From assembly GCA_964006375.1 (NCBI GenBank), contig OZ023267.1:80485682-80549681 (forward strand): a stretch of 64,000 bases of DNA. The letters run 5' to 3'. Shown here one piece after another: positions 5,703 to 49,939 of the stretch. Below the pieces are notes generated by a model. It made no database searches, was not told where the DNA came from, and saw only the letters and a list, made by a program, of their open reading frames with translations. Each line of letters begins with the position of its first letter. Positions within the stretch are counted from its first letter, which is position 1. This stretch comes from Tillus elongatus (taxonomy: Eukaryota; Arthropoda; Insecta; Coleoptera; Cleridae). A program made the translations under genes and the position numbers.

Positions 5703-8097
5703 TAAATCAGTTTGCTCGTTTAAAACAAGGTAGTTATTGTCGTGTGTGTGCCTTTTGACTTCTAAAGCTTCAAAAAAGTCTAGTTTACGTTTGTCATCAT
5801 AAAAATGTAGTGGTTCTATGCGGTTATTTATTGTAGGTCTATGTTCGGTATCAATAATATGTTTTGCAAATGTAGATTTGTCAGCGTGGTTATTTCTAAA
5901 TGCAGAAATATGTTCTTTGTATCGGGTGTTAAAATTTCTAGAAGTTTGACCTATGTAGATTGCGTTACAATGTGTACAAGCTAATTTATAAACTCCAGCT
6001 TTTGTCAGGAAACAAGATTTTTCTTTCGCGTTAAATAACAAATCACGCGTCGTGTTGTAAGATTTAAAAGCTACCTTTGTATTTGTACAAGTGTTTAAAA
6101 TTTTTGAAATGTTTTCTGAAATGGTTCCAAAATAAGTTATCGAAACGTATCTGTTGTCTTCTTTGTCTCTAATATTTGGATAAATTAAATTAATCGCTAA
6201 TTTGTATTCTTTTCTCTCTATCATTTTATCTATTATTTTAACAGAGTAGCCATTATTAAATGCTGTTTGCTTAATTATTGAAATTTCTTTTTCAAAATTG
6301 TTTTGTGACATAGGTATTGAAAATGCACGATGTATCATAGAATGATAGGCTGACAGCTTTTGTGAAAAAGGGGTGACATGAATCGTATGGTATGGTTGTG
6401 TCAGTGTAAGTTGGTTTCCTATATATTGAAAAGTCAAATGAATTATTTTCTAATTTTCTAATTGTTAAGTCTAAAAAGTTTATACAACTGTTAGCTTCTT
6501 CTTCTAGAGTAAACTTAATATTTGTGTGAAAGCTATTAATAAAATTTAAAAATTCATTTAATTCTGTATGACTACCTTGAAAACATGCTAAAATATCATC
6601 TACGTATCTGTACCAAAAGACAATATTATGTGAAAGTTCTGATGTTAAAATTTGGTTTTCTAAGTTTTCCATAAATATGTTGGCTAATAAAGGTGACAAC
6701 GGACTACCCATAGGCAGACCTTCATTTTGCATATAAATTTTATCATTAAATTTAAAATAGTTTTGTTTTATACATTCATTAAAAAGATTCATCATTTCTT
6801 GTCTTTTTATGACATTTACGTTCTTTTCTATTAAAACGTTTTCTAATAGAGGTAAACATTCTTTAGGGGGTATCTTAGAATACATGCTACAAACATCAAA
6901 CGAAACTAATTTACTATTTGTGGGAATAATTAAGTTATTTAATTTTTGTGTAAGTTCATAAGAATTCTTAACTGAATATTTTGGAAAGTAATTGTATTCT
7001 TTAATAAGTGAAACCAGTTTGCTCGCTATCTTATGATTAGGTGTATTAACATAGCTAACTACTGGTCTCACTGGTTTATTTGGCTTATGAATTTTCAGGT
7101 GGCCATATAATTTTGGTGGTTGCGGGCTTTTATATAAAAGATATTTCTTTTCTTGTTGACTAAACAGAGACACATTTTTAAGTTCATTTTTTAGTTTTGT
7201 CTGAAATGCGTTTGTTGGGTCTCTCCTAATTTCTGTTAAATTTTCCGTAGTAATAAAATCATTAATTTTAATGTTATATGCGTCCCTACTTATAGCTACA
7301 GTTGTATTTCCTTTATCAGCTTTAGTAAAAACTAAATCATTGTCTAATATTTTATGCTGAACAGATTTTAAAATTTGAGTTTCGTTAATTTGACGTTTGT
7401 CATATTTTGAAGTTAAATGTCTTAAAAATTCACATATTTTTAATTTTTCATATTGCCTTATAGATCTGGAAGCAATTTCGGATTCAGAAGCTAATATCTC
7501 TTTAATTTTGTTTGTAAATTTAAATTTTGGGCAGTATTTATATCCTTTATTTAGAAAAGAAATTTCTTCAGTTGTAAAAATTGTATCGCTTAGGTTTTCA
7601 AACCTTTTGTAAAACTTATGTGTTTGTGGGGGAGATCTTTCTCGATTATGTAAATGTTGTGTGCTTTCTAGGTTTCTAATTTTGTTTGTCTGTGTTAAGC
7701 GTTTTTTAAATTTCAATTCACTAACTAAAATATGTATTTGGTCATCTAATATATCAAATTCTACTGGATGTAATTTATAAGCAAGTTCTGAATGGATTAC
7801 CTTGATATAAAGAAGCAAACTATCACGAATTGAAAACCATTTCTTGGATTCTTCTTTCAGCCAGATGAAACTGGCTTTTCTAATAGCAATTTTTGATTGA
7901 TTTGATGTTATAGTAGTTGTTATGATTACGTACTTCGGGATGACCTTCTTTCTTATGCACTCTTGGTTAAACCATGCATTCTGGGAAGCGTTCATCTGCT
8001 TGATTTTCAATTTTCTATACAAATGGGCAAGCTCTTCGATAGAAGACCTCTTCAATTCATTGATTGTTGTTGCCCTTACTTGGTGAAACTTGTCCAT
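5664..8097 (-). pseudogene. PLE reverse transcriptase + GIY-YIG endonuclease, full length but frameshifted
   Basis: The start ATG at 8097 (MDKFHQVRATTINE) lies inside the upstream PLTR. An N-terminal region of about 150 residues precedes the RT. RT motifs follow in order: LVSFDVCSMYSKIP (motif A), GLPMGSPLSPLLANIF (motif B), FWYRYVDDILACF (motif C, YVDD) and CINFLDLTI. The C-terminus is a GIY-YIG endonuclease: AGVYKLACTHCNAIYIGQTS, then R..YKEH with a downstream His-rich tail. The G run at 6370-6373 has four G, whereas the sister copy has three at 9321-9323. The extra base shifts the frame between RT and endonuclease (frames 8097-6292 and 6437-5664 overlap). Sum about 810 residues, usual for Penelope proteins. 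If the extra G is a sequencing error the gene would be intact. Confidence 0.93.
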
Positions 8098-8652
8098 ACT
8101 GCATACAGACTTGGAGAATACTTCTCTAGCTTCACTGTTGGTTTTTAGTGGTGAAGGACGTAGCCAGCGCGTGAGCTAACTGGAGCAAGTGGCCTTTCGA
8201 ATTCTGGAAGTTCTAGGATGTTCTTCAATGCTTCTGTGACTATAGTTTCGCTGCTTGACAGCATTTTCAGACAGATTAAAATTGAATTAGTACGAAATCA
8301 TGACAACTACAAATAAATATCTGTTGCTAGGTTATGATATGATGTTTTGATCAAAAAATTTTATCAAATAGAAAATAAAATGAAACACAGATGACAGATG
8401 AGGTTTTCAAAATGTCTATGTGATGTATGTCAATATTTAACATAAAAACTAGAACTAGCCTATAATAACTATGATAACAGTTACAACAATAAAATAACTA
8501 AACAATAACAGTATAAAAGTAGTCTCTATACAACGAAAATATCGACATACATCAACTCATTATTTTATTACAACTTTTTTGAAATAATAGTTAAATTTAT
8601 TTTCTTTGGCATATTTAATTAGAAAGAAGAATATCCAAGAAAGGGGAATTCA
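8055..8652 (-). repeat. PLE PLTR, middle copy
   Basis: Shared between the two tandem genes: it supplies the start codon of the full-length gene and the 3' end of the truncated copy. Near-identical to 5104-5702. Confidence 0.9.
8224..8286 (-). ncRNA. Hammerhead ribozyme motif in middle PLTR
   Basis: Same sequence as the motif at 5273-5335: helix I CUGU/ACAG with outer UUCAAU/AUUGAA, helix II GCUG/CAGC, GAAAC and GUC present, core CUGAAAA. Confidence 0.6.
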
Positions 8653-10603
8653 TTAAATCAGTTTGCTCGTTTAAAACAAGGTAGTTATTGTCGTGTGTGT
8701 GCCTTTTGACTTCTAAAGCTTCAAAAAAGTCTAGTTTACGTTTGTCATCATAAAAATGTAGTGGTTCTATGCGGTTATTTATTGTAGGTCTATGTTCGGT
8801 ATCAATAATATGTTTTGCAAATGTAGATTTGTCAGCGTGGTTATTTCTAAATGCAGAAATATGTTCTTTGTATCGGGTGTTAAAATTTCTAGAAGTTTGA
8901 CCTATGTAGATTGCGTTACAATGTGTACAAGCTAATTTATAAACTCCAGCTTTTGTCAGGAAACAAGATTTTTCTTTCGCGTTAAATAACAAATCACGCG
9001 TCGTGTTGTAAGATTTAAAAGCTACCTTTGTATTTGTACAAGTGTTTAAAATTTTTGAAATGTTTTCTGAAATGGTTCCAAAATAAGTTATCGAAACGTA
9101 TCTGTTGTCTTCTTTGTCTCTAATATTTGGATAAATTAAATTAATCGCTAATTTGTATTCTTTTCTCTCTATCATTTTATCTATTATTTTAACAGAGTAG
9201 CCATTATTAAATGCTGTTTGCTTAATTATTGAAATTTCTTTTTCAAAATTGTTTTGTGACATAGGTATTGAAAATGCACGATGTATCATAGAATGATAGG
9301 CTGACAGCTTTTGTGAAAAAGGGTGACATGAATCGTATGGTATGGTTGTGTCAGTGTAAGTTGGTTTCCTATATATTGAAAAGTCAAATGAATTATTTTC
9401 TAATTTTCTAATTGTTAAGTCTAAAAAGTTTATACAACTGTTAGCTTCTTCTTCTAGAGTAAACTTAATATTTGTGTGAAAGCTATTAATAAAATTTAAA
9501 AATTCATTTAATTCTGTATGACTACCTTGAAAACATGCTAAAATATCATCTACGTATCTGTACCAAAAGACAATATTATGTGAAAGTTCTGATGTTAAAA
9601 TTTGGTTCTCTAAGTTTTCCATAAATATGTTGGCTAATAAAGGTGACAACGGACTACCCATAGGCAGACCTTCATTTTGCATATAAATTTTATCATTAAA
9701 TTTAAAATAGTTTTGTTTTATACATTCATTAAAAAGATTCATCATTTCTTGTCTTTTTATGACATTTACGTTCTTTTCTATTAAAACGTTTTCTAATAGA
9801 GGTAAACATTCTTTAGGGGGTATCTTAGAATACATGCTACAAACATCAAACGAAACTAATTTACTATTTGTGGGAATAATTAAGTTATTTAATTTTTGTG
9901 TAAGTTCATAAGAATTCTTAACTGAATATTTTGGAAAGTAATTGTATTCTTTAATAAGTGAAACCAGTTTGCTCGCTATCTTATGATTAGGTGTATTAAC
10001 ATAGCTAACTACTGGTCTCACTGGTTTATTTGGCTTATGAATTTTCAGGTGGCCATATAATTTTGGTGGTTGCGGGCTTTTATATAAAAGATATTTCTTT
10101 TCTTGTTGACTAAACAGAGACACATTTTTAAGTTCATTTTTTAGTTTTGTCTGAAATGCGTTTGTTGGGTCTCTCCTAATTTCTGTTAAATTTTCCGTAG
10201 TAATAAAATCATTAATTTTAATGTTATATGCGTCCCTACTTATAGCTACAGTTGTATTTCCTTTATCAGCTTTAGTAAAAACTAAATCATTGTCTAATAT
10301 TTTATGCTGAACAGATTTTAAAATTTGAGTTTCGTTAATTTGACGTTTGTCATATTTTGAAGTTAAATGTCTTAAAAATTCACATATTTTTAATTTTTCA
10401 TATTGCCTTATAGATCTGGAAGCAATTTCGGATTCAGAAGCTAATATCTCTTTAATTTTGTTTGTAAATTTAAATTTTGGGCAGTATTTATATCCTTTAT
10501 TTAGAAAAGAAATTTCTTCAGTTGTAAAAATTGTATCGCTTAGGTTTTCAAACCTTTTGTAAAACTTATGTGTTTGTGGGGGAGATCTTTCTCGATTATG
10601 CAA
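8615..10603 (-). CDS. PLE RT/GIY-YIG protein, 5'-truncated but frame intact
   Basis: 662 codons open from the truncation point to the stop. The RT (FDVCSMYSKIP, GLPMGSPLSP, YVDD, NFLDL) and GIY-YIG (GVYKLACTHC, YIGQTSR) are read in a single frame because the G run at 9321-9323 has three bases. About 150 N-terminal residues are missing. The ATG at 10603 is an internal Met placed next to the inverted PLTR, not a natural start. It is one element's 3' part joined in tandem to the full-length copy. A functional product is unlikely without the N-terminus, but the sequence shows the ancestral reading frame. Confidence 0.9.
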   Translation of the reverse strand: MHNRERSPPQTHKFYKRFENLSDTIFTTEEISFLNKGYKYCPKFKFTNKIKEILASESEIASRSIRQYEKLKICEFLRHLTSKYDKRQINETQILKSVQHKILDNDLVFTKADKGNTTVAISRDAYNIKINDFITTENLTEIRRDPTNAFQTKLKNELKNVSLFSQQEKKYLLYKSPQPPKLYGHLKIHKPNKPVRPVVSYVNTPNHKIASKLVSLIKEYNYFPKYSVKNSYELTQKLNNLIIPTNSKLVSFDVCSMYSKIPPKECLPLLENVLIEKNVNVIKRQEMMNLFNECIKQNYFKFNDKIYMQNEGLPMGSPLSPLLANIFMENLENQILTSELSHNIVFWYRYVDDILACFQGSHTELNEFLNFINSFHTNIKFTLEEEANSCINFLDLTIRKLENNSFDFSIYRKPTYTDTTIPYDSCHPFSQKLSAYHSMIHRAFSIPMSQNNFEKEISIIKQTAFNNGYSVKIIDKMIERKEYKLAINLIYPNIRDKEDNRYVSITYFGTISENISKILNTCTNTKVAFKSYNTTRDLLFNAKEKSCFLTKAGVYKLACTHCNAIYIGQTSRNFNTRYKEHISAFRNNHADKSTFAKHIIDTEHRPTINNRIEPLHFYDDKRKLDFFEALEVKRHTHDNNYLVLNEQTDLMNSPFLDILLSN

Positions 10604-11163
10604 ACTGATTTAATGAATTCCCCTTTCTTGGATATTCTCCTTTCTAATTAAATATGCCAAAGAAAATAAATTTAACTATTATTTCAAAAAAGTTGTAATA
10701 AAATAATGAGTTGATGTATGTCGATATTTTCGTTGTATAGAGACTACTTTTATACTGTTATTGTTTAGTTATTTTATTGTTGTAACTGTTATCATAGTTA
10801 TTATAGGCTAGTTCTAGTTTTTATGTTAAATATTGACATACATCACATAGACATTTGAAAACCTCATCTGTCATCTGTGTTTCATTTTATTTTCTATTTG
10901 ATAAAATTTTTTGATCAAAACATCATATCATAACCTAGCAACAGATATTTATTTGTAGTTGTCATGATTTCGTACTAATTCAATTTTAATCTGTCTGAAA
11001 ATGCTGTCAAGCAGCGAAACTATAGTCACAGAAGCATTGAAGAACATCCTAGAACTTCCAGAATTCGAAAGGCCACTTGCTCCAGTTAGCTCACGCGCTG
11101 GCTACGTCCTTCACCACTAAAAACCAACAGTGAAGCTAGAGAAGTATTCTCCAAGTCTGTATG
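10601..11163 (+). repeat. PLE PLTR, inverted copy
   Basis: Reverse complement of the other PLTRs. It starts within the last codons of the gene (CAAACTGATTTAATGAATTC) and stops at CCAAGTCTGTATG, about 40 bp short of the full PLTR end. It fuses directly to the truncated gene at 10600. Confidence 0.88.
10979..11041 (+). ncRNA. Hammerhead ribozyme motif in inverted PLTR
   Basis: Plus-strand copy of the motif: UUCAAU, CUGU, CUGAAAA, GCUG-ucaag-CAGC, GAAAC, UAUA, GUC, ACAG, AUUGAA. With the downstream minus-strand copies this gives ribozyme motifs facing each other across the array. Confidence 0.6.
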
Positions 11164-12384: not shown

Positions 12385-15770
<3,386 letters not shown>

Positions 15771-19952: not shown

Positions 19953-19960
19953 GTTTATAT
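19953..19960. repeat. hAT target-site duplication, right
   Basis: GTTTATAT, identical to 17864-17871. Confidence 0.85.
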
Positions 19961-20284
19961 TATATTTATGATATCATAAGCTGTTATTTGATCTATGTCT
20001 ATTTATTTTTCTGGATGTTTTAAAGATTGAACAATCTTATTGTAGCATGAATTGTTTGAATTTTGGGTAATTAAGTAATTCGTTGTCTGGAGTGTAGATA
20101 ATGAAACATGGAGTATATCAGCAAACATATCAGGTAAGAATCCCTAAAACAGCGGCCATCCTTGGGAACCGTCTACTTAACGATCGCCACCTAATTGCTA
20201 AATACGAATTTTGCTATGTCCTTAGAAGCAGCCTGGAGATGTCTTACCTGGTCACACCAATTCATTTTAAAACGTTAAATATGA

Positions 20285-20640
20285 TTGATCTATAGAAGAA
20301 TTAGGCTTATCCAGAGCAATCGACATCATAAGGAACAGTACAGTACCCATCAAGTTGCCAGGATTGCTTATTTTGTACATTGTCGCAGTATCCTATCGTA
20401 TGGAACATTCATATGGGTTAACTCGTCAGCAGCGGAACATGTGTTTATCATGCAAAAAAGAGCAATAAGGACAGTGAATGATAAAGCCCGCAACATCAAT
20501 ACCAGGTGCAGGCATGACTTAAAATTCAGTTGCACAAAAAGGAGAAAACAAAGCAGATGTTTGATTACTTGGGAATCAAATTCCTCAGTTTTTTACCTAA
20601 TGTTATTAAGATGCTTCCACTAACAAGATTACAGTAGACA
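20285..20640 (+). pseudogene. LINE RT C-terminal fragment in TIR element copy 2
   Basis: Reads IAYFVHCRSILSYGTFIWVN, AEHVFIMQKRAIRT, then NINTRCRHDLK: the conserved tail of LINE reverse transcriptases. Compared with 22735-23195 it lacks about 110 bp between QKRAIRT and NINTRCRH. Carried as cargo by the DNA element. Confidence 0.7.
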
Positions 20641-21461
20641 CTAGTGGATGTTATAAAACAAAAACCAAGATGAAGGAATTTATTGGTGCTCTAAACTAAT
20701 GTGTAGTGTGTGTGTGAGTGTGTTAGGCAAAAGCTTTGGAAGGCAAGTTACACTAGCTACAGACTTTTTTATATATACATAATTCATTGTAGTCATAATT
20801 TTGTTTTACTTTAATTCAATGTTACTGAATGTACACAGTACTATACTTACCCGATAGGGATAGTTACAACATATGCGTTAACACTTTCTGAGAGTGTCAC
20901 CATACTTAAGCTATTTTCGCATTGCAGTTGTATTCATTTCCATGCGCTTGATTTATCCATTGCATATTATACGTTTGCTTAATTAAACTTTCTCTAAAAT
21001 CGAAATGAACGCACCATTTTAGATAAAAAAATTCACAATGGTATTTGATGTGTTGACTTTATTTTATGTCATATATGTTACCACATATTTTAGAAGCTAA
21101 AAAAGTTCTCGCCTCTCAAAATAAGTAATGCTACTTCGTTTTTGTTATTGGTGTTTCACACATTTTCCTAGACGACACAGTTATTTAGTAAAACAATATC
21201 AAAAACAATTAATTGGTATTCATTTAGAAAAAAGAATTTTTGAAATTGGTCAATTAATAACGATATAACGAGTTCAAGTTATCAATTTTGTCGCTGAGTT
21301 TTGACTAGAACTGCATTTTAGGCTTAACATGGACACTCGCTAAATGTCTTAACTATCTCTATATAGTAACTATAGTCGGTACTTATAAAGACAGTGACTT
21401 ACCATGTACATTTGATGGTCAATAAAATCTATATATCTATCAGCAGAAATGAATAATATGT

Positions 21462-21463
<2 letters not shown>

Positions 21464-21512
<49 letters not shown>
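21464..21512. repeat. (TA)n microsatellite
   Basis: TA tract of about 49 bp at the place where copy 3 has a tract at 33134-33226 and copy 1 only a short AT word (about 13465). Confidence 0.95.
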
Positions 21513-21515
<3 letters not shown>

Positions 21516-22734
21516 GTATAAATACACCTATACCTATATTCAGTATTAAGTTGTAGTCTTTTAAAAAAGCTATACAGTATGTACCATATTTGAAAAATGA
21601 CTTCATCGATAATTTCTTTAAATCAACCCTACGTTTTTGTTGACTATTTTTAAAGTTCTTACATGTGAAGTTGTAGAAAACCAGCAGTTTGTATTCATTG
21701 ATAATTACACAATTTTTTTTCGTGCAATCAACTCAAAATTTATAATAGAAATTTGAAATTTGGTGGTTTGGTATTGCTTGGTGTGTACTTTAAAAATAGC
21801 CAACAAAAAGCTAAGGTTGTCATTTACAAAAATTATCAATGACATTTGACACAAATTGTATAATATATTTTTAAAAAGATTGTAACTGAGAATATTATCT
21901 GACTCCGAGCATTTTTGAAAAGAAATCTGAAGTAGATTAATTGGAATTATCCCAAGTTACAAACTTGCACTGTATATATAATATATACAATTGCAGATAA
22001 GTTGCAAATGTAAGTTTCAATTTTACAACTTTGCTAGGCCCTTTTAAAATTGAAGCTTACTGTAAGCTTACATTTGTAAGTATAAAGAAAGTTTGTAACA
22101 GCTCACTACAGTAAACTTGCAGTAAAGTTACAAAAGAAACACTTACATATGTAAAATCACTGGGGGAGGGGGGGGGGGGGGTGTCGTTAAGATTTGCCAT
22201 TTGCAACAAACTTGAAGGAAGCTTTCTGCAAGTTATCTATCAAACTTACACTTGCTTTGGCAAAGATTCTGCAATGTTAATGCAATATTACCTTGCTCAG
22301 TGGGCATCATCATAAGTTGTTATGTGATCTATATCTATTTATTTTTCTGGAAGTTTTAAAGATTGAACAATCTTATTGTAGCCTGAATTGTTTGGATTTT
22401 GGGTAATTAAGTAATTCGTTGTCTGGAGTGCAGATAATGAAACATGGAGTATATCCACAAACATGTCAGGTAAGAATACCTAAAACAGCTATATACTAAA
22501 TACATGTGTAAATTCAATAAAATTAGTCACTTTTCTGCAGCATAATTAAATTTTGGTATGTCGCTATTGGTGAATTATTCTAAAATGGCTGCATTTATAT
22601 TTTTCTTTCTTTTTATGAAATATACTCAACGAAAAAGAAAACCTAATTGTTAAATATAAATTTTGTTGTCCTTAGAAGTAGCCTTGAGATGTCTTACCTG
22701 GTCAGACCAATTCATTTTAAAACGTTAAATATAT

Positions 22735-23195
22735 AAGCACGAGGCTTATCCAGAGCAATCGACATAAGAACAGTGGAACAGTACAGTACCCATCAAGCTG
22801 CCAGTATTGCTTATTTTGCACATTGTCGCAGTATACTATCGTATGGAACATTTATATGGGTTAACTCGTTAGCAGCGGAACATGTGTTTATCATGCAAAA
22901 AAGAGCAAAAAGGACATTGTGTGCGTAGGTCCAAGAAAAAGCTGCCCTGGTGTGTTCGCGGCCAATGGGATACTTAGGTACCCTTCCAGTCATATTCTTC
23001 TTAAGTATATGTATTCAAAATATCCAGTGAATGATGAAGTTCGCAACATCAATACTAGGTGCAGGCATGAATTAATAATACAGTTGCATAAAAAGGAGAA
23101 AACAAAGCAGATGTTTGATTACTTCGGAATCAAATTCCTCAATTTTCTACCTAATGTTATTAAGATGCAACCACTAACAAGATTACAGTAGGCAC
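22735..23195 (+). pseudogene. LINE RT C-terminal fragment in TIR element copy 3
   Basis: Longest version of the captured LINE tail: LSYGTFIWVN, EHVFIMQKRAKRT, VGPRKSCPGVFAANGILRYP, then NINTRCRHELIIQL, FDYFGIKFLNFLPNVIK. Frames are interrupted and there is no RT core. Confidence 0.7.
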
Positions 23196-23363
23196 TAGTG
23201 GATGTTATAAAACAAAAGCCAAGGTGAAAGAATTTATTGGTGCTCTAAACTAATGTGTATAGTATTACATATTACTTTTAATCATTCTTTGTAGTGTGTG
23301 TGTGTCTGTGTGTGTGAGTACGTTAGGTAAAAGCTTATGAAGGCAAGTTCCACTAGCCACAGA

Positions 23364-23365
<2 letters not shown>

Positions 23366-23455
<90 letters not shown>
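23366..23455. repeat. (TA)n at left junction of 8.8 kb insert
   Basis: TA tract exactly where copy 3 is interrupted; partner tract at 32277-32340. Confidence 0.96.
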
Positions 23456-23456
<1 letters not shown>

Positions 23457-24170
23457 GTATAAATGGCATGTTATGTAGCCCACTATATGGACGGAGCGTT
23501 GTTCCACCCGTCGCTTAGGAAAAGTATGTAACGATTTAAATACGTGTATTTCGCTACTTTGTCTAGCACTTTAATGAGCAACCAGAGAGGGGTAATGTCG
23601 GAAGAAAGACTAAAGTTTTATACATTTTGAATACTTTGTATGGCCCTCTATATATTAATATTTCGCTATTTAGCCCCCTTGATATATATGTGATATGCTT
23701 AGCACGTTGTTCGGCCCAGCAGCGTTGCCTATGTAGTTGCGTACTATTAATAGCCTCTCACATGTTTTTCTACATTTCCGTGAACCAGAACTGTACTACT
23801 CACATGTATTCTGAATGTATCTTTTGTATTCTGAAGTTGCGTTTAGTGGTTGAAGGACGAATGACGTCGAAAATAAAACGCTCTTCAGAGATGTATCCAA
23901 GCCGTGGAGAGATGTTAGTGTCGATGGCTATTAAAAAAGTACTTATTAAAATAGTCTAAATTCTACCCTTATATTATAGTTAGTACCTTTCATGTTGTAT
24001 TTGATAAATTAAAAAATAATTTAGCTGTTGACATCAAAAAAGATTTATTTGTTTTTGGGTTAGCAGTTACTCATAAGAATATGCAGTATATACTAAGTGA
24101 ATATTGGAGCCTGTGATGAGCACTGATAAATACACTTGGTGAACCCAAATCACCACAACACATTTTTTAA

Positions 24171-24217
24171 AGACCTGACGATCATTTCACTAACAAAGTT
24201 AGCGTCATCAGAGGATG
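24171..24217 (-). ncRNA. Hammerhead ribozyme motif, family B, left arm
   Basis: Minus strand: CCU-CUGAUGA-C-GCUAAC-uuu-GUUAGU-GAAAU-gauc-GUC-AGG. The core CUGAUGA and GUC site are canonical, helix II is 6 bp and helix I starts CCU/AGG. GAAAU replaces GAAAC, giving a U.G in helix III. Confidence 0.7.
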
Positions 24218-24239
24218 AAAAATTCTTCAATTGTTTTTT

Positions 24240-24286
24240 CATCCTCTGATGACGCTAACACTGTTAGTGAAACGATCGTCAGGTCT
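24240..24286 (+). ncRNA. Hammerhead ribozyme motif, family B, right arm
   Basis: Plus strand: CCU-CUGAUGA-C-GCUAAC-acu-GUUAGU-GAAAC-gauc-GUC-AGG. All conserved core bases (CUGAUGA, GAAA, GUC) are present. One extra base (C) sits between CUGAUGA and helix II. Best preserved family B core on the plus strand. Confidence 0.75.
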
Positions 24287-24339
24287 TTAAAAAGATGTGT
24301 TATGGTGATATGGGTTCTCCAAGTGTACTTATGCAGTAG

Positions 24340-25318
24340 CTAATTACTCATTAACTTATTATTTCCACATCGTCTTACATGTAGAAGTATAGGTAATGAT
24401 AACGGAACGGTCAAATTGAATTTTTGTGTGTAAAAAGTCCCAAAACATATAATGTAATGAATGACTTTAGTAGTCTTTCAAGCTAATGTGTATGTTACAA
24501 TTAACAATAGTTGTAAATAAAAGGAATAGCAAAAATACTAACACCTTTAGGAATTAGTTTTGTTGATCATCTCACCTGTGGATTTTTTAAGTTAAAATTT
24601 TTGCCAATAAAAAATGTTCGGGTAATCTAAAATTGATACGAAAAAATCAGCCATTATCATGTGACTTTGCTAAGTCATCCTTGAGTCGCCACTGCCCAAA
24701 TTTTTTATAATGTGTTTTATAGGAAAATGTGCTTTTAAGGTCTATAATGACAAGTAATAATGTTTTTAAAGTTTGAGAAGTATTTGGAGATTTAATTAGC
24801 AGTTAGTAATGTAGGTTTCTTTAATTTGACATGTTACAGCGCAATGTAAAAAATATAATAGGCTACCTAATAATAGTGACATCCCCCCTTTTATTCACGC
24901 GCCATACATAAAAAAAACAAGCACCGACTATTGTGATTTTAGATCAGTCACTTTACAGGGTGGAAATGGAAGTAAAATGCCAACTGGTAAAAACGGCGCA
25001 AAGTTTTTGCAATGCCATATTCGATCCTTTAGCCTCATGTATAAAAAATCCAAGCGCAGGAAGTGTGTTACGTATATTAACGACTTTTCAGAAAAAAATT
25101 TTAGATGCCCATAATTTAATTTAACATTAACCTAAAAACTTTAGTTTTGTAGTTCCAAAAAAATTCAAAAGTAGAATCGAGTCTTTCTTTTTTTGGAAAG
25201 ACTGCTTTTGGGCTGATTTAGGAAATTTTTTAAGCTATTTACACAAAAAATACCTACTAGGTTTGAGCAAAATCAGGTAATCATTTTTCAAGCTGTTACT
25301 ATTTTTTCAACTCTATAA
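24340..25318. other. Non-coding stretch with a family C fragment
   Basis: Bases 24360-24440 match the start of the family C repeat (TTTCCACATCGTC.TACATGT, AAAACATATA). The remainder has no recognisable gene or repeat. Confidence 0.45.
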
Positions 25319-25320
25319 CT

Positions 25321-25480
25321 TCAGCCTCGGTGGCTCAGTGAAGAAATATGTACTTCCAAAGTCAAGCGCTCTAGGTTCGAAGCCCGACCGTTGATAAGTA
25401 AAAACTCGTTGATTATGTGTTTGGTAAATTTTCCCGGGTGGTGAGATAAAACTATTCCCTAGCATCGGTGTTTAGCTATC
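25321..25480 (+). mobile_element. tRNA-derived SINE
   Basis: GCCTCGGTGGCTCAGTG is a pol III A-box context and GGTTCGAAGCCC a B box, spaced about 40 bp apart. The intervening sequence does not fold as a good tRNA, and a unique tail follows (CCCGGGTGGTGAGATAAAAC). A relative with the same GCCTCGGTGGC head lies at 63270-63345. Confidence 0.6.
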
Positions 25481-26545
25481 GTCGCGAAAATAGGCTTATG
25501 TTAAATAAGGTAAAAAACAAAACTAAACTAAACCTATCAAACTCATATACAAGTACTATTTGAGAATCAGTTAAATAACTGTAATCAAACAGGTGGTATA
25601 TTTGTCCTATCAAACATAAAAATAAAAAATAGCTCTCAATAACATCTGAGCAACAAATTGTGTTGCCGACAAACATTTTTCTTAAATTCATTTTTATACT
25701 AAACATTGTAGCTTGGTACAACTAATAAAACTGCTGGGAATAATAAGTACATATAACATAATTTCCTGTTTTATATATTTACTAAATAGTTGTTAATATT
25801 CTTTAGGTCAACCATCAAAAAAAATATTTATCGAATAAGTTAGAATGACAAGTATGTAATATAAATTGTTTATCATGGCACACTTGCCTTAACGTTGACG
25901 TTCAACCATAGTATAAGGAAAAATTATGCTGTGTTATGTTTTTGAATGTCTCTAAATACCTCAAAAACTGTCCTTTTTAGCTATAGGAAATAACCAATAT
26001 AGGTCGGAAAGTTATCAAAAAAAAGGAATCAGTTGGAACTGCAAGTTCATGTATGTCCCTTTTAAAATAAGACACTGATTAAAGGCAGAAGTAGTCAAAG
26101 GTTGGCGCTACCCCGCTGACCATTAATATTTTCAAATCAATTTTCAAAGAAAACTATAAGAGATAGGTATAGGGTAATGTATACTTAGAAGATAGGGAAT
26201 TTAACGCCGAATCAGATGCTGGGGACATATGGGTACCCTTTTATTAAAAAAATCAATTTATCCTGATTGAAAATTTTCAAATTCAAATGTATTTTATAAA
26301 TAACAGTTATCTTAAAATCGTATTGTGTTTATAACAGTATGTATAAAATTTTACGCTCTATTGGATAGTGAAAACCGCATGTTTCTGTCTTGCATGTCTT
26401 TAAAGATATCGGAATTTTTCTAAAGCGCTCCAATCGTAACTTTTTCTACAAAATGGCAAATAAATCCGAAACGGTACAAACTAGCCCGACTATGTTGTCA
26501 TAAAGTGGCCCTTAAATTGAAGGTGTAATTCAAAAAGCTAATAAT

Positions 26546-26736
26546 ATACAGGGTGTTTCATTTAAAAAAACAAAGTTTGTGTCGACTTCCGGTATAACCG
26601 GAAGTGCAGGCTAATTGAAAATATTTTAGTTAGAAAGATCAGTATCAAAAACGTGCGGATACAAATTTTCAGAATTTAAATAGATATAGTTCTCCAGAAA
26701 CGTCTAATAGGCCACTCACCGTGAAGTACCCTGTAT
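26546..26736. mobile_element. MITE-like element with ATACAGGGT ends, 191 bp
   Basis: Starts ATACAGGGTGTTTCA and ends GTGAAGTACCCTGTAT; the ends are inverted repeats with one insertion or deletion. An internal hairpin ACTTCCGGTATAACCGGAAGT lies near 26584-26604. No coding. Confidence 0.6.
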
Positions 26737-27123
26737 ATTTGCGGAGATTGTGTTAACTAGGCTTTTTCAGGAAAATAAACCACTTCATAGAATTTGTTAG
26801 AAAACATAAACCAGTTATTTGTTTTGTTAAATACAGTAGGTACTAATACAAATGCAGCCGGTTAGGTTTCATTTTTTTAAGCTAACTTTCTGAAGCACAC
26901 AAGCTAGTTTAGTAAAACAGTGCAATATCCCGACAAAATTATATTTTGTTATAAGCTAGTTATTTTACAACTATTTTTTTGCACATTTTAGTGAGTACTT
27001 TAGGTAAATTAATTTGAAAACTTTTTAAGTACTTAACGCTTAGTAAAAGCAAAATAAATAACAGGGTTTGAGCTTTTTGACATATTAGGTTGTAAACATT
27101 CTTAAACAAATTTATTTCCTAAT

Positions 27124-29620
27124 TTGCAGATGAGTTACTGTAAGCAAAATTCTAACAGTGATGTTAGTTCGTCAGTGTCTTTTGATGAAATTAGCTCTGT
27201 AGATTCATTTTCCATTTGTTCGGACTCTGCGTCTTCAGAATCATACCTATATTTACCAAATACACATATAACAGAGGTAACACAGGTATCATTTGCCTTA
27301 CTTACTTTAAAATAATTTGTATTTAAATTTCTATTGAGTCTTATTTTATGTTTATGTTACAAATTCTACTTTAGGAGCTCACTTGTACTGATAAGGACAA
27401 TGAATCACAAGATAGTGTAAATTTAATTGAAAAAAATATTAAGATTCTTGAAGAAGAACACATATTAAATACTGGGTCTCAAGTTTGTGATGCCAAAAAT
27501 GTTACAAGAAATGATATTTTCAAAGAGCCTTTACCGTTAACTAAAAGTGATAAGTTGGGAAAGAATAAAAATACAAACTATGATGCTAGTGATACCAATG
27601 CAGATGACAACAGAGAAACACTAGCCTTAAATCAGTATGATGCAACAGGCAATGGAATTAATTCATCTGTAAATCGTCAAAACAAAGCAGAGGAGGAGTT
27701 TGTATGTGACATGGTGGATTTAGAAAAAATGTGTGAGGTTTCTGTTCATACTATGTACCAAGAAAGAGAAAATCTTATTAAAGATCTTGTAACCCCAGAA
27801 GAAGAACCTCCAATATCCATAAAAATTGATAACCCAGTTGAAAGAAACTTAGATGCAGTAGTTCTTAGATTTGGAATAATAACTGAAGTAAGTTTTGGAT
27901 TGTGCTGAAAACTGCAAAAAACACTGATTAAAATTTAAGTACTGGCCACTAAATATTTTATTTTTAGGAACCTGTAGATAGCATTGAATATTTTTCAAAT
28001 ACCAGACCGTGGACAAAAAAATCTGCGTGTCCCTATTGTTGCCTAGAAGTAACACATTTTCCGCGACATTTGTTTCGAAACCATAAAGAGGAGGGGGCAG
28101 TTAAGGAACTAAAAGGTATGTCGCTTAGTGATCCTAAAAGAAAACAGCTGTTAAATGCAATTCGTAGGCAAGGAAACTTCCAATACAGCAATCAAACAAA
28201 TTTTATAAAACCTGTCAGACGAGAAAAATATACTGATAATAATGATCCTGATTGTAACAATTCTAAAAGTAAAAACATAGAAGATGGAAAAGAAAAATAT
28301 TTGGCCTGCAATAATTGCTTTGGTTTTTTTAAAAGAAGTTATTTAAGAAGACATAGAAAAACATGCCCGTTGAGGTCTAATCACGAAACAAAACAAACGT
28401 CAACACCACTTATCAGCGTCACAAGCAGCTACTGTCTGTGCAGGGGTTTATAGTAAATTTTATGATACCTTGCGCTTGAAAAATGAAGTCTTTACTATTA
28501 TGCGAGCAGATGAAATATCAAAAACTGCCATGAATGATATACTTATCTGCAGTTACGGGGAGAGTTTGCTAAGAAAGCATAAAAGAATACAAATAAAAAC
28601 GGTAATATCGAACAAAATGCGAGAGCTGGGTAGACTTCTACTAGCTTTAAAAAAACTACTGGAACCCATATTTTGTTTGATGTTTTAAAACCTGAATTTT
28701 TCGACAACATAGTTGCGGCTGCTAAGATAATAAGTGGATACGATCACGAATTACGAACATTCAGGGCTAGTAGTTTGGCATTACATCTGGGCACATCACT
28801 AAGGCAGGTGTGCGATATAGCCACCAAACTTCTCATCAAAAAGAGCATCTTTATTCGGTGCAACGAGAGAGACAAGTCACTGAAAGATATTAAACAATTA
28901 AGACTTCTAATAGAGAGACACTGGAATTCAGAGGTCTCTAGTTTAGCTTTGAAAAATCTGAATGAAAACAGATGGGAAAAACCAAAAATGTTTCCCCTTA
29001 CAAGTGACATATTAAAATTCCAAAAATACGTTTTAAAAGAAGCTAAAGAAGCTGCCGAAAATATGATCAGAGAAAAATTTGCCGACAAAGAATATAGAAG
29101 GTTGTGCGAAAATATTCTGGCCTTTACTTTATTACTGAATAGAAAGCGTATTGGAGAGGTACAATACCTAAAAGTTAAAACTTATTGCAAAAGCAACTCA
29201 CAAGGTCAACAGGAAGAGTGTTTGGAATCTTTAACCGAAGCTGAAAAACTCCTAACTCAAAATTTCAAGCGAGTTGTAACTGGGGGGAAGGGTAGTAAAC
29301 CAGTCGCAATTTTATTTTCAAAAAATATTCAGAAATTCATAAATATTATGTTCGAGGTCAGACACAAATATGTAGCAGCAAATAATGAATACTTATTTGC
29401 CAACCCATGTGTTGAAGATAAATGGCTAAGTGGATACCACGTACTAAAAAAGTTGGCTAATCAAGCAGGTGTAAAAAATCAAGAGCTGTTTACCTCTACG
29501 AGACTACGTAAACAGATTGCCACAGTTCTACAAGTGCTGAGTGTCAGCGACAACGAAATGGAGCAGTTTGCCAATTTTATGGGCCACACAAAAAAGACTC
29601 ACGAATCTTATTATAGGTAA
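27124..29620 (+). pseudogene. Zinc-finger protein with tyrosine-recombinase C-terminus (Crypton-like)
   Basis: Exons: 27124-27285 (MSYCKQNSNSDVSSS, acidic/Ser-rich), 27375-27887, and 27968 onward; introns have CAG|GTATCA..TTTAG and GAA|GTAAGT..TTTTTAG. Exon 3 carries a C2H2-like finger (CPYCCLEVTHFPRHLFRNH) and a second finger (CNNCFGFFKRSYLRRH, then C). The C-terminal 315 residues show the recombinase tetrad: R in NRKRIGEVQYL, R in TRLRKQIATV, H in FMGHTKKTHESYY and the Tyr in the same word. A donor-like AG|GTAAGC at 29619 hints at a further exon. Frame slips near 28420 and at the A run near 28655 break the gene, unless they are assembly errors. Inside the TIR-bounded insert. Confidence 0.75.
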
Positions 29621-29639
29621 GCTATAATAAATTTTAAAT

Positions 29640-30285
29640 AATTTTTAAGTATATCTACTTTATCGAGAATGCCTTGTTTAATGATATAAAAACTTTCACA
29701 ATGAAACATTGGTATCTACAGGAAAAGCTTTACTACAAAGTAATTTGCAAATACTGTGTTCACAAGTCAGAGTATTTAAATTATTTAATGAAACAGATGT
29801 ATGTACGATTGACACTATATTATTATAACATGACAGCTGTTACACTGCGATGTGGCTTCTTCAGATACAAAGTGAACTTTTGTGTCTGAAGATGACACAT
29901 GGTGACGAAACAGCAGCCATGTGAGAATAATATAATGTCGATCTTACCGTTAATCTGATCTAATAAATAATTTAAATACTCTTTTTTCTTTAAGCGACAT
30001 ATCCATAATACAGCATATATCGCCTTCAAACCTAGTTGGGTAATACACCATGTTTATTATCTTATATGTATATGCCAAAACATAACATTTTGAGTTTAGT
30101 GCACCGCAGAAACATACTGTAACAAACACGTAGGACAAACAGAAATGGAAAAAAGGTTTTTTAAAGGCAGAAGTTGGTTTGTAATTTTTTTATTTCAATT
30201 TAGTTTAAATGCTTAATCTACTTAAATAGTCAAATGTACTTCTTTTATGAAAAGATGATATAATAGCAACATTTTTGTACTAAAT
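29640..30285. other. AT-rich stretch after recombinase gene, no gene seen
   Basis: No acceptor-framed exon continuing the recombinase was convincing. A weak hairpin TTCTTCAGATACAAAGTG..TTTGTGTCTGAAGA occurs at 29855-29893. Confidence 0.4.
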
Positions 30286-30289
30286 ACTG

Positions 30290-30535
30290 ACGTAGAGACT
30301 GTTTCTTTGGATTCACCAATGTTTGTGTTCTTCTCTGTAACCGGTGTCGTTGTTTGACAGCACCATCAGACAGGATATTTTTTTTAATTGATTGATGATC
30401 CTGTCAAGCAGTGAAACCGCTTACAGTAACGGAAACGAAGATTTGTAAAGCCAGAGAAATAGTCTCTACATTTGTATTTAGTATGGAACGGTTTCACCAA
30501 GTAGGGGCAACAACAATTAATGAACGTTTTTTTCC
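30290..30535. mobile_element. Old PLE relic, family A PLTR hairpin
   Basis: Left part in minus sense (GAGACTGTTTCTTTGGATTCACC, TGTTTGACAGCACCATCAGACAG), right part in plus sense (CCTGTCAAGCAGTGAAACCG, CCAGAGAAATAGTCTCTACA, GTATGGAACGGTTTCACCAA, GGGCAACAACAATTAATGAA). Same arrangement as 4625-4965 but more decayed. Confidence 0.65.
30388..30426 (+). ncRNA. Degenerate hammerhead motif, family A relic
   Basis: UUGAUUGAUGAUCCUGUCAA then GCAGUGAAAC, CGCUUACAG. The core reads UUGAUGA (one change from CUGAUGA) with GAAAC kept and the GUC site lost. The opposing arm (reverse complement of about 30355-30375) reads CUGAUGG. Together they argue that the ancestral family A core was CUGAUGA. Confidence 0.45.
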
Positions 30536-30774
30536 TTGTAATTAATACATCAGCGATATTTTTATGAACGACGAGCTAAAGTTAATTTAAGAGTGTCTTG
30601 TATATGATTGTGTTAAATATCTTTTATATGTCATTTATAGCCTGTTCTGTAGAAGATAGACATGTCTCAAAAAGGCAATATTTTAATTTTTTCTGTAGAT
30701 TTTTATGAATAACAAAGAAATTTTGCATAACTTTAGTCTCGTTAAATTTATCTGCGTTCTTCCTATAGTTGACA

Positions 30775-30870
30775 GCATTTTTCATCCTCTGATGACGATA
30801 ACTTTGTTAGTGAAACGATCGTCAGGTTATTAAAGAATGTGTTTTAGGTTCCCCAAGTATACTTATAAAA
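30775..30870 (+). mobile_element. Family B PLE-type fragment with hammerhead
   Basis: Contains CATCCTCTGATGACGATAAC, TTGTTAGTGAAACGATCGTC, AGGTTATT, then TTCCCCAAGTATACTTAT. The single arm matches the right arm of 24089-24329. Confidence 0.65.
30783..30827 (+). ncRNA. Hammerhead ribozyme motif, family B
   Basis: CCU-CUGAUGA-CGAUAAC-uuu-GUUAGU-GAAAC-gauc-GUC-AGG; core complete. Helix II has one mismatch (GAUAAC/GUUAGU). Confidence 0.65.
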
Positions 30871-31134
30871 TTAAAAAGTGCTCTACAACGGCCTTAAGAA
30901 GTGTCAAATGTATAGTCTCTTGTTATGTTTCCCTAAAGTCAAGTAATTTGAAACGGCGGCCTGTTTGTTTATGTAAAAGGCTCTAGCTAATGACTCCATT
31001 TCCGATAAATGTAATATATATATAATACATGGTTTGCTCTAAAATAACTCAAAACACTACATAATTTGTAAATTTTGCCATTATCAACTCATTTTATAAT
31101 AATGACCTTTTATCAAAAAATATGTTAAATACAA

Positions 31135-31215
31135 CATTTTTCATCCTCTGATGACGATAACTTTGTTAGTGTTATTAAAGAATGTCTTTTAGGTTCCCCA
31201 AGTGTACTTATCAGT
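31135..31215 (+). mobile_element. Family B fragment with deleted ribozyme
   Basis: TTCATCCTCTGATGACGATA, ACTTTGTTAGTG then directly TTATTAAAGAATG: GAAAC and the GUC site are deleted compared with 30783-30827. Followed by CCCCAAGTGTACTTATCAGTG. Confidence 0.65.
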
Positions 31216-32170
31216 GATGATCACAGATTCCAATCTTCACTTAGGAAAAAAATATGTTATTAGTTAATACAAATTTGCACGCCACTCTTTGGAAATCTGT
31301 TGTAAAATAAATATTTAATTATACTAAATAGGTTCCAGTTATAATTATAAAATTTTCAAGATGACGTCACAATATGATGTGCTGCAATACGGATTTTTTT
31401 AAAAGAATTGTTTAATAAATATGTTAACACCTGTTAAAGAATGTAAGATACCCTTCCATAGTTGTTACTGTTTTAATTTATAGTTTACTTTTACGTCGAC
31501 GATACTAAAAGACGACGCAAAGGTTACGTTTATATTTATATATTTACTTTCAAATGTTCATTTTTATTAGAAAAAAGTATTTTTCCTTTTTACGAAATAA
31601 CGTATTATAAAAACTATAACGAAATTAGGGGTTGGAAACTAAAACTGTATGAACGAATGTTCTATGTAAATATAGGTCAAATAATAGCCTTCTGTAAAAA
31701 AAAATTAAAATTAGTTACATCAGGCATTAACGTCGATGATAATTATTAATTTGTTACCAGAGCATGTTTTTATGTTGACAAATAAGTACGTTAACCTTTA
31801 AAGCGATGCTGCCTAAAACTACTTTAATAAAAAAATAAAATCAATATCATTTTCAAGGTAAAATTATTGCCGAGTTCTTCCTGGTAGTAAACATTAAATA
31901 GAAATCCAGTTATAAACCACTTGTTTGCGAACAAACACAACTGTGGGTCATAACACTGTTGCCAGATATTGGGCTACATAGCGTGCGGGTTACATAAAAG
32001 TGGTGTATCTTCTTTCGGTGTATATAGTTGACTATCAACGCGCCCTCTTCAGTTGAGTCGTTTGAATCAGCGGGTGTATGTTGCAGGTGTAAATAATGCT
32101 TTATGAGGCCCAAGGAAAAAGTAGCTGGCTGTCTTGTACACATGTTTTTATATAAGTAGACACAGTCTAA
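31216..32170. other. Right interior of the 8.8 kb insert, no gene seen
   Basis: A second GGGCTACAT word at about 31970 and short minus-strand frames (for example 32143-31910) occur, without any recognisable motif. Confidence 0.4.
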
Positions 32171-32273
32171 AGGTCGATACGCTGTTTAGCCCGCAAGTGG
32201 GATAAACAACGTTTTTCCGGGCTTCACAATGACTGTTTATACCTTCATTGGGCTACATAATAACCGTTTATAC

Positions 32274-32276
<3 letters not shown>

Positions 32277-32336
<60 letters not shown>

Positions 32337-32340
32337 TATA
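32277..32340. repeat. (TA)n at right junction of 8.8 kb insert
   Basis: TA tract with one CA interruption at 32331; beyond it copy 3 of the TIR element resumes. Confidence 0.95.
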
Positions 32341-33129
32341 CGTAATTCATTGTAGTCATAATTTTGTTTTATTTTAACTAAATGTTTCTGAATGTACACA
32401 GACATTGACGGTACTATACTTACTCGATAGGGATACTTAAGACATATGCGTGAACACTTTCAGAGAGTGTCGCCATATTTAAGCTATTTTCACATTGAAG
32501 TTGTATTCATTTTCCTGCGCTTGATTTATCCATTGCATATTCTTATGTTTGCTTAATTAAACTTTCTCTAAAATCGAAATGAACGCACCATTTTACATAT
32601 TTCTTTTTTTCACAATAGTATTTGATATGTTGACTTTATTTTATGTCACATATGTTACCACATATTTTAGAAGCTAAACAAATTGTCGTCTCTCAAAATA
32701 AGTAATGCTGCAGAAGAACTTTGTTTTTGTTATTGGTGTTTCACGCGTTTTCCTAGACGACTAAGAGTTATTTAGTAAAACAATATCAAAAACAATTAAT
32801 TGGCATTCCTTTAGAAAAAAGAATTTTTCAAATCGGTCAACTAATAACGATATCACGTTCAAGTTATCTATTTTGTCGCTGAGTTTTGACTAGAACTGCA
32901 TTTTAGGGTAAACATGGACACTCTCGCTATATGTCTTAACCATCTCTATCTAGTAACTATAGTCGGTACTTATAAAAACAGTGACTTACCATGTACATTT
33001 GATGGTCAATAAAGTCTATATATCTATCTATCAGCAAAAAAGAAATTTGTTGTCAGTCTTTCATTTTTTTATGTAATAAAGATTTTATTCTAATTAACAT
33101 TGTCTTAAGTCATTTTTTACAGTTTGATA

Positions 33130-33133
<4 letters not shown>

Positions 33134-33226
<93 letters not shown>
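33134..33226. repeat. (TA)n microsatellite
   Basis: TA tract inside copy 3, at the position equivalent to 21464-21512 in copy 2. Confidence 0.95.
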
Positions 33227-33228
<2 letters not shown>

Positions 33229-34081
33229 GTATAAATACACCTATACCTATATTCAGTATTAGTTTGTAACTTGAAATAAATTCAGTTAATCAAATACAGT
33301 TTCTTTTTTTCAAAAATGCTTGGACACATTGATTAGTATTTCAAGTTGCAGTCTTTTAAAAAATCTATACAGTATGTACCATATTTGAAAAATGACTTCA
33401 TCGATAATTTCTTGAAATCAACGCTACGTTTTTGTTGACTATTTTTAAAGTTCTTAAATGTGAAGTTATAGAAAACCAGCAGATTTAAAATTTTTATTCA
33501 TTGGTAACTACACTTTTTTTTCGTGCTTTCAACTCAAGATTTATAATAAAAATTTGAAATTTGGTGGTTTTGTATCGCTTGATGTGTACTTTAAAAATTG
33601 TCAACAAAAAGCTAAGGTTGTCATTTATAAAAATTATCAATGACATTTGACACAAATTGTATAATACATTTTTGAAAAGATTGTAACTGAGAATATTATC
33701 TGACTCCGAGCATTTTTGAAAAAAGCTGAAGTAGATTAATTGGAATTATCCCAAGTTATAAACTTGCACTCTATATATAATATATACAATTGCAGATAAG
33801 TTCAAATGTAAGTTTAAATTTTACAACTTCGCTACGCCTTTTTAAAATTGAAGCTTGCTCTAAGGTAACATTTGTAAGTATAAAGAAAGTTTGTAACAGC
33901 TCACTACAGTAAACTTGCAGTAAAGTTACAAAAGAAACAGTTACATATGTAAAGTCACTGGGGGGAAGATTTGACATTTGCAACAAACTTGCAGAAGGCT
34001 TTCTGTAAGTAATCTATCAAACTTACACTTGCTTTGGAAAAGATTCTGCAATGTTAACGCATTATTACCTTGCTCAGTGGG

Positions 34082-34471
34082 ACATCATTTGGTTCTGAAG
34101 CTGGAACATCTCATCAATTATGTAAGTTTTTTAAGATATGCATAAAAACTTAATTTGTGTATTATTGCAGGTGAACAATCACATTAAACAAATCTTTTGT
34201 AAAGACCACAGGTTTCACCTTCTTCCACTGCATCATGTAGTCATCAAAACCCAGAGGGTATGTACCTGCAGAACAGGTCTCCTAAAGATTTTACTAAGAA
34301 TTTTATTTATTTCAGAAAAATCTCCAAATCATAACATTATTAGCCCGTATCCTAGAGCAGTATTGAAAAAGACGAAGAAAGAGAGCAGAAGGAAAGGGAA
34401 ATTAAGGATCTTTACAGATACGCCAGAAAATAACCGATTAGAAGAAATTGAACGAAAAAGGGAAAGGCGTA
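34082..34471 (+). pseudogene. pogo-family transposase, segment 2
   Basis: Continues the transposase C-terminal region: TSFGSEAGTSHQL, intron 34121-34170 (GTAAGT..TTGCAG), then after a second intron-like gap ending TTTCAG at about 34315, NIISPYPRAVLKKTKKESRR and IFTDTPENNRLEEIERKRER. The 'SPYPRA..KGK..I.TDTPE' pattern is typical of pogo-type tails. Broken at 34471 by the TIR element. Confidence 0.8.
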
Positions 34472-43929: not shown

Positions 43930-43942
43930 TTTCATCTTATAT
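43930..43942. repeat. Left target-site duplication of solo PLTR
   Basis: TTTCATCTTATAT, repeated at 44539-44551. Confidence 0.85.
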
Positions 43943-44538
43943 TCATTGATTGTTGTTGCCCTTACTTGGTGAAACTTGTCCATACTGCATACCGACTTAG
44001 AGAATACTTCTCTAGCTTCACTGTTGGTTTTTAGTGGTGAAGGACGTAGCCAGCGCGTGAGCTAACTGGAGCAAGTGGCCCTTCGAATTCTGGAAGTTCT
44101 AGGATGTTATTCAATGCTTCTGTGACTATAGGTTCGCTGCTTGACAGCATTTTCAGACAGATTAAAATTGAATTAGTACGAAATCATGACAACTACAAAT
44201 AAATGTCTGTTGCTAGGTTATGATATGATGTTTTGATCAAAAAATTTTATCAAATTGAAAATATAATGAAACACAGATGACAGATGAGGTTTTTAAAATG
44301 TCTATGTGATGTATGTCAATATTTAACATAAAAACTAGAACTAGCCTATAATAACTATGATAACAGTTACAACAATAAAATAACTAAACAATAACAGTAT
44401 AAAAGTAGTCTCTATACAACGAAAATATCGACATACATCAACTCATTATTTTATTACAACTTTTTTGAAATAATAGTTAAATTTATTTTCTTTGACATAT
44501 TTAATTAGAAAGAAGAATATCCAAGAAAGGGGAATTCA
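43943..44538 (-). mobile_element. Solo Penelope-like PLTR (family A)
   Basis: Single ~596 bp PLTR nearly identical to 5104-5702, bounded by a 13 bp direct repeat. It begins TCATTGATTGTTG and ends AAGGGGAATTCA. Either a strongly 5'-truncated insertion or a recombination product of two PLTRs. It contains a hammerhead motif and no gene. Confidence 0.88.
44110..44172 (-). ncRNA. Hammerhead motif in solo PLTR, further damaged
   Basis: Same frame as 5273-5335, but the conserved GAAAC reads GAACC. With the CUGAAAA core this copy should be inactive. Confidence 0.5.
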
Positions 44539-44551
44539 TTTCATCTTATAT
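44539..44551. repeat. Right target-site duplication of solo PLTR
   Basis: TTTCATCTTATAT, identical to 43930-43942. Confidence 0.85.
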
Positions 44552-49793: not shown

Positions 49794-49873
49794 CACTATG
49801 TGAAAACTGGAACCTGTGATGAGCACTAATAAGTACACTTGGAGAACACCCAAATCACCACAACACATATTTC

Positions 49874-49919: not shown

Positions 49920-49939
49920 AAGAAAATTCTGAATTGTCT

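Follow-up and report, generated by a model that had tools for sequence, protein, structure and literature searches.

How did a gene for a zinc-finger tyrosine recombinase come to lie between inverted repeats in a beetle genome, and what moves it? The question is raised by a 64,000-nucleotide stretch of contig OZ023267.1 of Tillus elongatus (the window; positions below are those of the window), in which an 8.8-kb insert (23456..32276) carries such a gene. An earlier note, made from the letters of the window, left two options: either a recombinase gene was captured by a transposon with terminal inverted repeats (TIRs), or the insert is an undescribed TIR-bearing recombinase element. Our analysis favours the second. 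It appears probable that the insert, shortened by internal deletion, belongs to a family of DNA transposons which target TA microsatellites and whose own zinc-finger tyrosine recombinase moves them.

The left (23457..23482, + strand) and right (32249..32274, - strand) ends of the insert are related inverted repeats, as had been claimed. Over 26-30 bp they gave a score of 36 against a maximum of 25 in 1000 dinucleotide shuffles, and with 30 bases per end a score of 34, which was reached in 0 of 2000 shuffles. The signal weakens with length (the score was reached by 8 of 1000 shuffles at 120 bases and by 143 of 1000 at 400); past approximately 30 bp, therefore, only scattered motifs match. The motifs GTTGTTNNNCCC and TGTAGCCCA occur three times each in the window, all pointing inward and all at most about 310 bp from an end. 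The left set lies at 23474..23717 on the + strand (TGTAGCCCA at 23474, GTTGTTNNNCCC at 23498 and 23706), the right set at 31970..32257 on the - strand (TGTAGCCCA at 31970 and 32249, GTTGTTNNNCCC at 32199). For the shorter motif core TAGCCC the picture is more mixed: of 7 occurrences in the terminal 400 bases, 4 face inward.

The earlier note had the insert interrupting an otherwise continuous copy of another repeat, and two further copies of this repeat are indeed joined without insert in the window. These empty sites were located at 20766..20781 (second copy, + strand, join at about 20770) and 14263..14276 (third copy, - strand, join at about 14270). The three copies of the repeat (12597-15281, 19960-22310 and 22304-34088; two tandem, one inverted) are 84-94% alike across most of their length. 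The insertion site had been described as a TA site. TA is right, but the insert is bordered by TA runs, (TA)45 on the left (23366..23455), which we read as the target microsatellite, and (TA)27 on the right (32277..32340).

The genome searched comprised 1.72 Gb in 30 contigs. The 8.8-kb unit, on the + strand in the window, recurs whole at five other loci with unlike flanks and identities of 98.9-99.99%. The C10 copy near 9.53 Mb is nearest to that of the window (1 difference in 8,820 aligned bases), between the C1 copy near 19.55 Mb and the C5 copy near 105.40 Mb there are 2 differences in 8,816 bases, and the C1 copy near 318.18 Mb, the most distant of the five, is about 1% different. With its ends fixed at many sites with different flanks, the insert is a mobile unit.

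The end searches scored 40 places each, and the resulting counts are lower bounds. When left and right ends on one strand and at most 26 kb apart were paired, at least 24 pairs were obtained genome-wide; at least 14 of these enclose a close-family recombinase (identity of at least 86%) and at least 10 do not, at least 8 of the latter being 6.4-6.5 kb long. A close-family recombinase was present within 22 kb downstream of 16 of the 40 left ends scored. Seen from the side of the gene, 21 of the 24 recombinase matches with at least 86% identity were compared, the other three being extra fragments of counted loci (C6:81.25, C5:111.1 and C7:64.94): none of the 21 lacked a matching end altogether, and 15 were flanked by one on each side. 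In the copies examined no separate boundaries of the recombinase were seen within the unit. None of the three outcomes that the earlier note named as refuting it was observed.

The gene had been placed at 27124-29620, with two zinc-finger-like motifs and the conserved residues of tyrosine recombinases. Motifs and residues stood, while the gene model required correction: it starts near 27130, has introns and a frame change, and lacks its last two exons. All parts are on the + strand. Exon 1 (27130..27285) was predicted from an ATG and splice signals, and exon 2 (27375..27887), which contains a 177-amino-acid open stretch, from splice signals. Exon 3 (27968..29616) encodes the zinc-finger-like motifs 1 (CPYC...H...H, 28028..28084) and 2 (CNNC...H...C, 28307..28366) and the recombinase, the latter in an open frame of 315 amino acids (28673..29617). 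The catalytic residues are R159 (29147-29149), K206 (29288-29290), R279 (29507-29509), H305 (29585-29587) and Y314 (29612-29614); in the HxxR motif Thr276 stands at the usual His position. The frame of exon 3 changes between approximately 28390 and 28690 in the window copy, and copies with an open frame exist in the genome. The exon stops at a splice donor after HESYYR, and about 3 kb with the last two exons are absent.

Assignment of the enzyme rests on these residues and on structure prediction. The predicted fold of a homologue is that of a tyrosine recombinase and matches Xer recombinases, Cre and lambda integrase, and a core-binding region aligns with Xer and Cre chains. Both zinc-finger-like motifs were recovered in the family alignment. 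Single-protein Pfam and PDB sequence searches with pieces of the window gene gave no recombinase match, and the family profile retrieved a single irrelevant match (E 0.15) among PDB sequences.

The missing exons were found in related longer copies of the window unit, which measure 14.4-15 kb. The C8 copy near 37.87 Mb (14.4 kb) has both ends and an unbroken 549-amino-acid stretch that spans the two zinc-finger motifs and the recombinase; approximately 1.2 kb downstream, after a splice acceptor, follows an exon starting RLPQDVYQTAK and then an exon with RRRWTEEQ...YNYYKKK. Traces of both extra exons were detected in all five longer copies (C8, C9, C1 near 304.7 Mb, C10 near 9.51 Mb and C3 near 95.02 Mb). 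In the window the deletion junction is at 30770..30778 (near 30774), where the longer copies have the approximately 3 kb with exons 4 and 5; at 25826..26111 they carry 2.5-4 kb of other sequence, which may represent a gain or a loss. Since these 3 kb with the last two exons are absent, the 8.8-kb insert, rightly seen as a discrete unit, is not the complete element but a truncated derivative of the 14.4-15 kb form. The insert, a reduced copy of an element with a phage-like tyrosine recombinase, has moved very recently. In three 8.1-kb copies the recombinase match is limited to the first 136 of the 315 residues, thus copies without the catalytic residues multiplied too.

The genome contains 126 scored recombinase matches, which fall into several groups, some with near-identical copies. 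The F2 recombinase is 43% identical to that of the window, and its 13.1-kb element was found on C3 near 2.55 Mb and on C4 near 76.0 Mb (99% identical), with (TA)n on both sides on C3 and on the right on C4, where only the right side was read. The F3 recombinase (36% identical to the window's) is encoded by a single exon of 672 amino acids in a 7.98-kb element, whose copies on C1 near 2.44 Mb and C4 near 107.24 Mb are 99.9% identical over 8.2 kb and have (TA)n on both sides. A 656-amino-acid open stretch with many C2H2 zinc fingers (L077:2-1969) lies upstream of the C1 copy of F3. Beside an F3 copy, between TA runs, a short repeat with the inverted ends TTAGAGGTGTGCGAA (L076, approximately 6427-7262) was noticed, another TA-associated element.

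The window group, F2 and F3 share one plan: terminal (TA)n, motif arrays directed inward, and no recognised enzyme other than the recombinase. In the terminal 400 bp, 3 of 3 occurrences of GTAGCCCA and 3 of 3 of GTTGTTNNNCCC point inward in the window group, as do 9 of 9 of GGCACC in F2 and 7 of 8 of GAGCCA in F3 (core GAGCC, 8 of 14). Under an even spread 0.1 to 0.4 terminal motifs would be expected in the three groups, a comparison that overstates the case because the motifs were chosen after inspection. Plain inverted ends, compared over 30 bases, were significant in the window group only, the scores of F2 and F3 being reached by 143 and 341 of 2000 shuffles, respectively. Each of the three groups has its own end motif with its own recombinase. 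In a fourth, 31% identical group (C9:66.47 Mb and C7:37.63 Mb; L079-L082) the open frames are about 833 amino acids long; pieces of two copies are 96-98% alike up to or nearly to the limits of the stretches, within which borders were not found.

This pairing bears on the captured-gene option, in which the recombinase gene was taken up by a DDE-type TIR transposon and the mobile enzyme is a DDE transposase supplied from another source. Tc1/mariner elements typically have inverted ends and a TA target, and the 6.5-kb copies have spread without a close-family recombinase. Excerpts of two papers supply parallels: MarCry-1_FO, a Crypton-Mariner fusion, has 16-bp TIRs and TA duplications (PMC3212892), and (AT)n is the insertion site of nimaviruses that have a Ginger2-like DDE integrase and a 46-bp TIR, these DDE-type viruses being the only nimaviruses for which the excerpt reports clear inverted repeats (PMC10871703). 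Against capture stands the pairing, in three groups, of an end motif with a recombinase of the group's own. The complete C8 copy has no open stretch longer than 145 amino acids outside the recombinase gene. The six open reading frames (ORFs) searched in C8, F2 and F3 besides the recombinase gave no family match and no second enzyme, and no DDE family was recognised among them, with the reservation that an intron-split gene could escape detection. With two divergent groups repeating the plan and no DDE transposase recognised, we regard capture as very improbable.

To describe the target of the family, 24 insertions with both flanks were used (21 of the window end type, one F2 and two F3), a TA run being scored if at least 9 units lay within 11 bp of the border. 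TA runs were present on both sides in 22 of the 24; the exceptions, C5:111.1 and C1:5.53, lack one on the left side. Nine of 12 singly read ends also adjoin a long TA run, and three do not (C3:95.01, C8:43.70 and C8:43.68). TA microsatellites are frequent in the window, where ten (TA)n arrays of 25-78 units outside the insert make up 876 of 54,880 bases (1.6%), and such an element would therefore find many targets. At the C2 insertion near 55.15 Mb (L056), more than 100 bp of the left flank recur, in direct orientation, in the right flank on the far side of the TA array.

Paralogous empty sites, drawn from the window and from other retrieved genome stretches, turned out to be TA arrays for three insertions (C10:9.53, C1:19.6 and F2). 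Two were found for C10:9.53, one array having a few CA interruptions, with flanks 95-100% identical; at the closer one no sequence was lost outside the TA array. C1:19.6 has three and F2 three plus one with a short run, one repeat type being common to both; since their flanks are repeats of 75-93% identity, these sites are paralogues, not alleles. Two observations were left out of the count: in L077 the flanks of C10:9.53 lie 586 bases apart (78-82% identical), and the flanks of C2:189.4 join at three places, in repeats matched by the flanks of other insertions, one of these places having been inspected in part. For the window insertion both empty sites carry only short TA runs, thus a longer array before insertion, or later growth, must be assumed. 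The left TA arrays vary little in length (25-50 units for 19 of 21 insertions of the window end type), which would fit TA carried by the element. The TA arrays at paralogous empty sites favour a pre-existing target, and some carry-over or later growth may have occurred, most of all at the window site. Any short direct repeat or target-site duplication of fixed length is masked by the flanking TA arrays.

The abundance of TA arrays suggests another way in which copies could multiply, by segmental duplication or by homologous recombination between the arrays, the recombinase gene being merely carried along; in some copies, moreover, the flanking sequences are tandemly occurring repeats. Constant unit borders with differing flanks in the copies examined, and the inward subterminal arrays in three divergent groups, argue against it, and we judge it very improbable.

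If the recombinase moves its own element, the following mechanism can be proposed. The enzyme would excise the element, probably in circular form. Its zinc-finger part would bind the subterminal motif arrays as arm-type sites, and its core-binding and catalytic domains would act where the two inverted ends meet. Tyrosine recombinases require matching sequence between the sites in both partners. The circle would set CCGTTTATACGT and CGTATAAATGG face to face around TA, and strand exchange would occur in the TA sequence common to end junction and target. Any TA array would then offer matching sequence, and strand exchange within the shared TA would consequently allow entry into (TA)n without loss of flanking sequence. 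Facing ends around TA would fit the layout typical of these enzymes, two inverted sites of 11-13 bp that are 6-8 bp apart, according to the excerpt of PMC3212892. The 8.8-kb copies, which lack exons 4-5, and the 8.1-kb and 6.5-kb copies, which lack a complete recombinase, were probably moved in trans by complete copies. The proposed mechanism predicts a TA-repeat target and coupling between end motif and recombinase lineage, both of which were seen; it also predicts circles.

Among known systems, animal Cryptons (CryptonA and CryptonI) come closest in gene content: according to the excerpt of PMC3212892, they are DNA transposons with a tyrosine recombinase as the only recognised enzyme, occur in insects, and have no terminal repeats, direct or inverted, in agreement with what the earlier note had said of Cryptons. 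The Tillus family resembles them in its sole recognised enzyme and in its insect host, and is set apart by description through inverted ends in one group, inward arrays in three and a (TA)n target. It is possible, if doubtful, that we are dealing with a Crypton in the wide sense, a CryptonA or CryptonI lineage that gained inverted end motifs and a TA-repeat target, which would mean the same mechanism under another filing. The shared gene content and host range speak for this, the reported lack of terminal repeats against it; none of 36 family members matched a Crypton-derived Pfam family at E 0.01, a weak test. The 4-6 bp direct repeats at both termini by which fungal Cryptons are recognised would be masked here by the TA arrays.

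In enzyme layout the family resembles the nimaviral recombinases (majaniviruses and relatives), which combine a C2H2 domain, a SAM-like core-binding domain and a tyrosine recombinase and insert in simple repeats, as described in the excerpt of PMC10871703, which also mentions further such proteins outside viruses in decapods. They are carried by large viral genomes, with (TAACC)n telomere repeats or 28S ribosomal DNA as target, in contrast to (TA)n in 22 of 24 Tillus insertions. By description, the family works as a Crypton-type element with a nimavirus-like enzyme layout. One might also think of a large, endogenous, nimavirus-like DNA virus of which the integrase gene has survived, given the C2H2 domain of nimaviral recombinases and their insertion in simple repeats, yet complete copies measure 8-15 kb, and the ORFs searched matched no family. 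No relative was found in scans of viral contigs (by protein, end pattern and family alignment; nimavirus genomes may be missing from that collection) or, by alignment, in prokaryote contigs. When folds were compared with viral models, no match fell below E 1e-3; since most of the best matches were also unnamed, this is uninformative on nimaviruses. A viral relic is, in our estimate, extremely unlikely.

Three further kinds of system can be compared. The integrases of lambda and of Tn916/Tn1549-type elements are bacterial, with arm-binding domains of other kinds than the Tillus zinc fingers, and Tec elements of Euplotes pair a tyrosine recombinase with inverted ends. MarCry-1_FO, like the Tillus family, joins a tyrosine recombinase to inverted ends; Tec1, Tec2 and MarCry-1_FO, as far as described in the excerpt of PMC3212892, also encode a DDE transposase, whereas none was recognised in the Tillus elements examined (C8, F2 and F3). 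Starship elements are likewise eukaryotic, moved by a tyrosine recombinase and excised cleanly, but they are fungal, measure approximately 170-196 kb in the case reported and have direct repeats at their borders (excerpt of PMC12506042). Among the papers listed by full-text searches we recognised none on a transposon that combines a tyrosine recombinase, inverted end arrays and insertion in (TA)n; the scope did not extend to Repbase, Dfam and closed papers, which may hold a name for it. Among the matches listed, the best named relatives of the window recombinase are beetle proteins, and named relatives come from beetles, from moths and butterflies (Bombyx, Danaus, Vanessa and others) and from the wasp Cotesia; most are labelled 'uncharacterized', 'hypothetical' or 'Tyr recombinase domain-containing'.

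The window also contains other repeats. A Penelope-like element was found at 5100-11163 and 43937-44540, with an ORF at 8615-10609 (- strand) matching reverse transcriptase and GIY-YIG, and nearby copies, in direct and inverted order, are 98-99.8% identical. A 423-amino-acid open stretch at 60264-61535 with a reverse transcriptase match resembles long interspersed nuclear elements. A palindromic repeat lies at 24113-24347, nested in the mobile unit, and elsewhere in the window at 49824-50036 and 63784-63917.

Taken one step further, the family may represent an unnamed superfamily of insect DNA transposons, moved by a zinc-finger tyrosine recombinase, whose ends are inverted arrays of arm sites and whose crossover core is a TA microsatellite, target choice following repeat identity, and which may share an ancestor with the repeat-targeting integrases of crustacean nimaviruses; we hold the chances of this wider proposal to be evenly balanced. 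Animal Cryptons are mostly low in copy number, medaka excepted, and lack terminal repeats (excerpt of PMC3212892), in contrast to the 126 recombinase matches scored in this one genome. With near-identical copies, fixed ends, a defined target and three pairings of end motif with recombinase, the mechanism lends itself to direct tests. Should it be confirmed, the recombinase would count as a site-specific integrase of eukaryotes with a preference for simple repeats, and the nimaviral integrases that target microsatellites might have a cellular source in this family.

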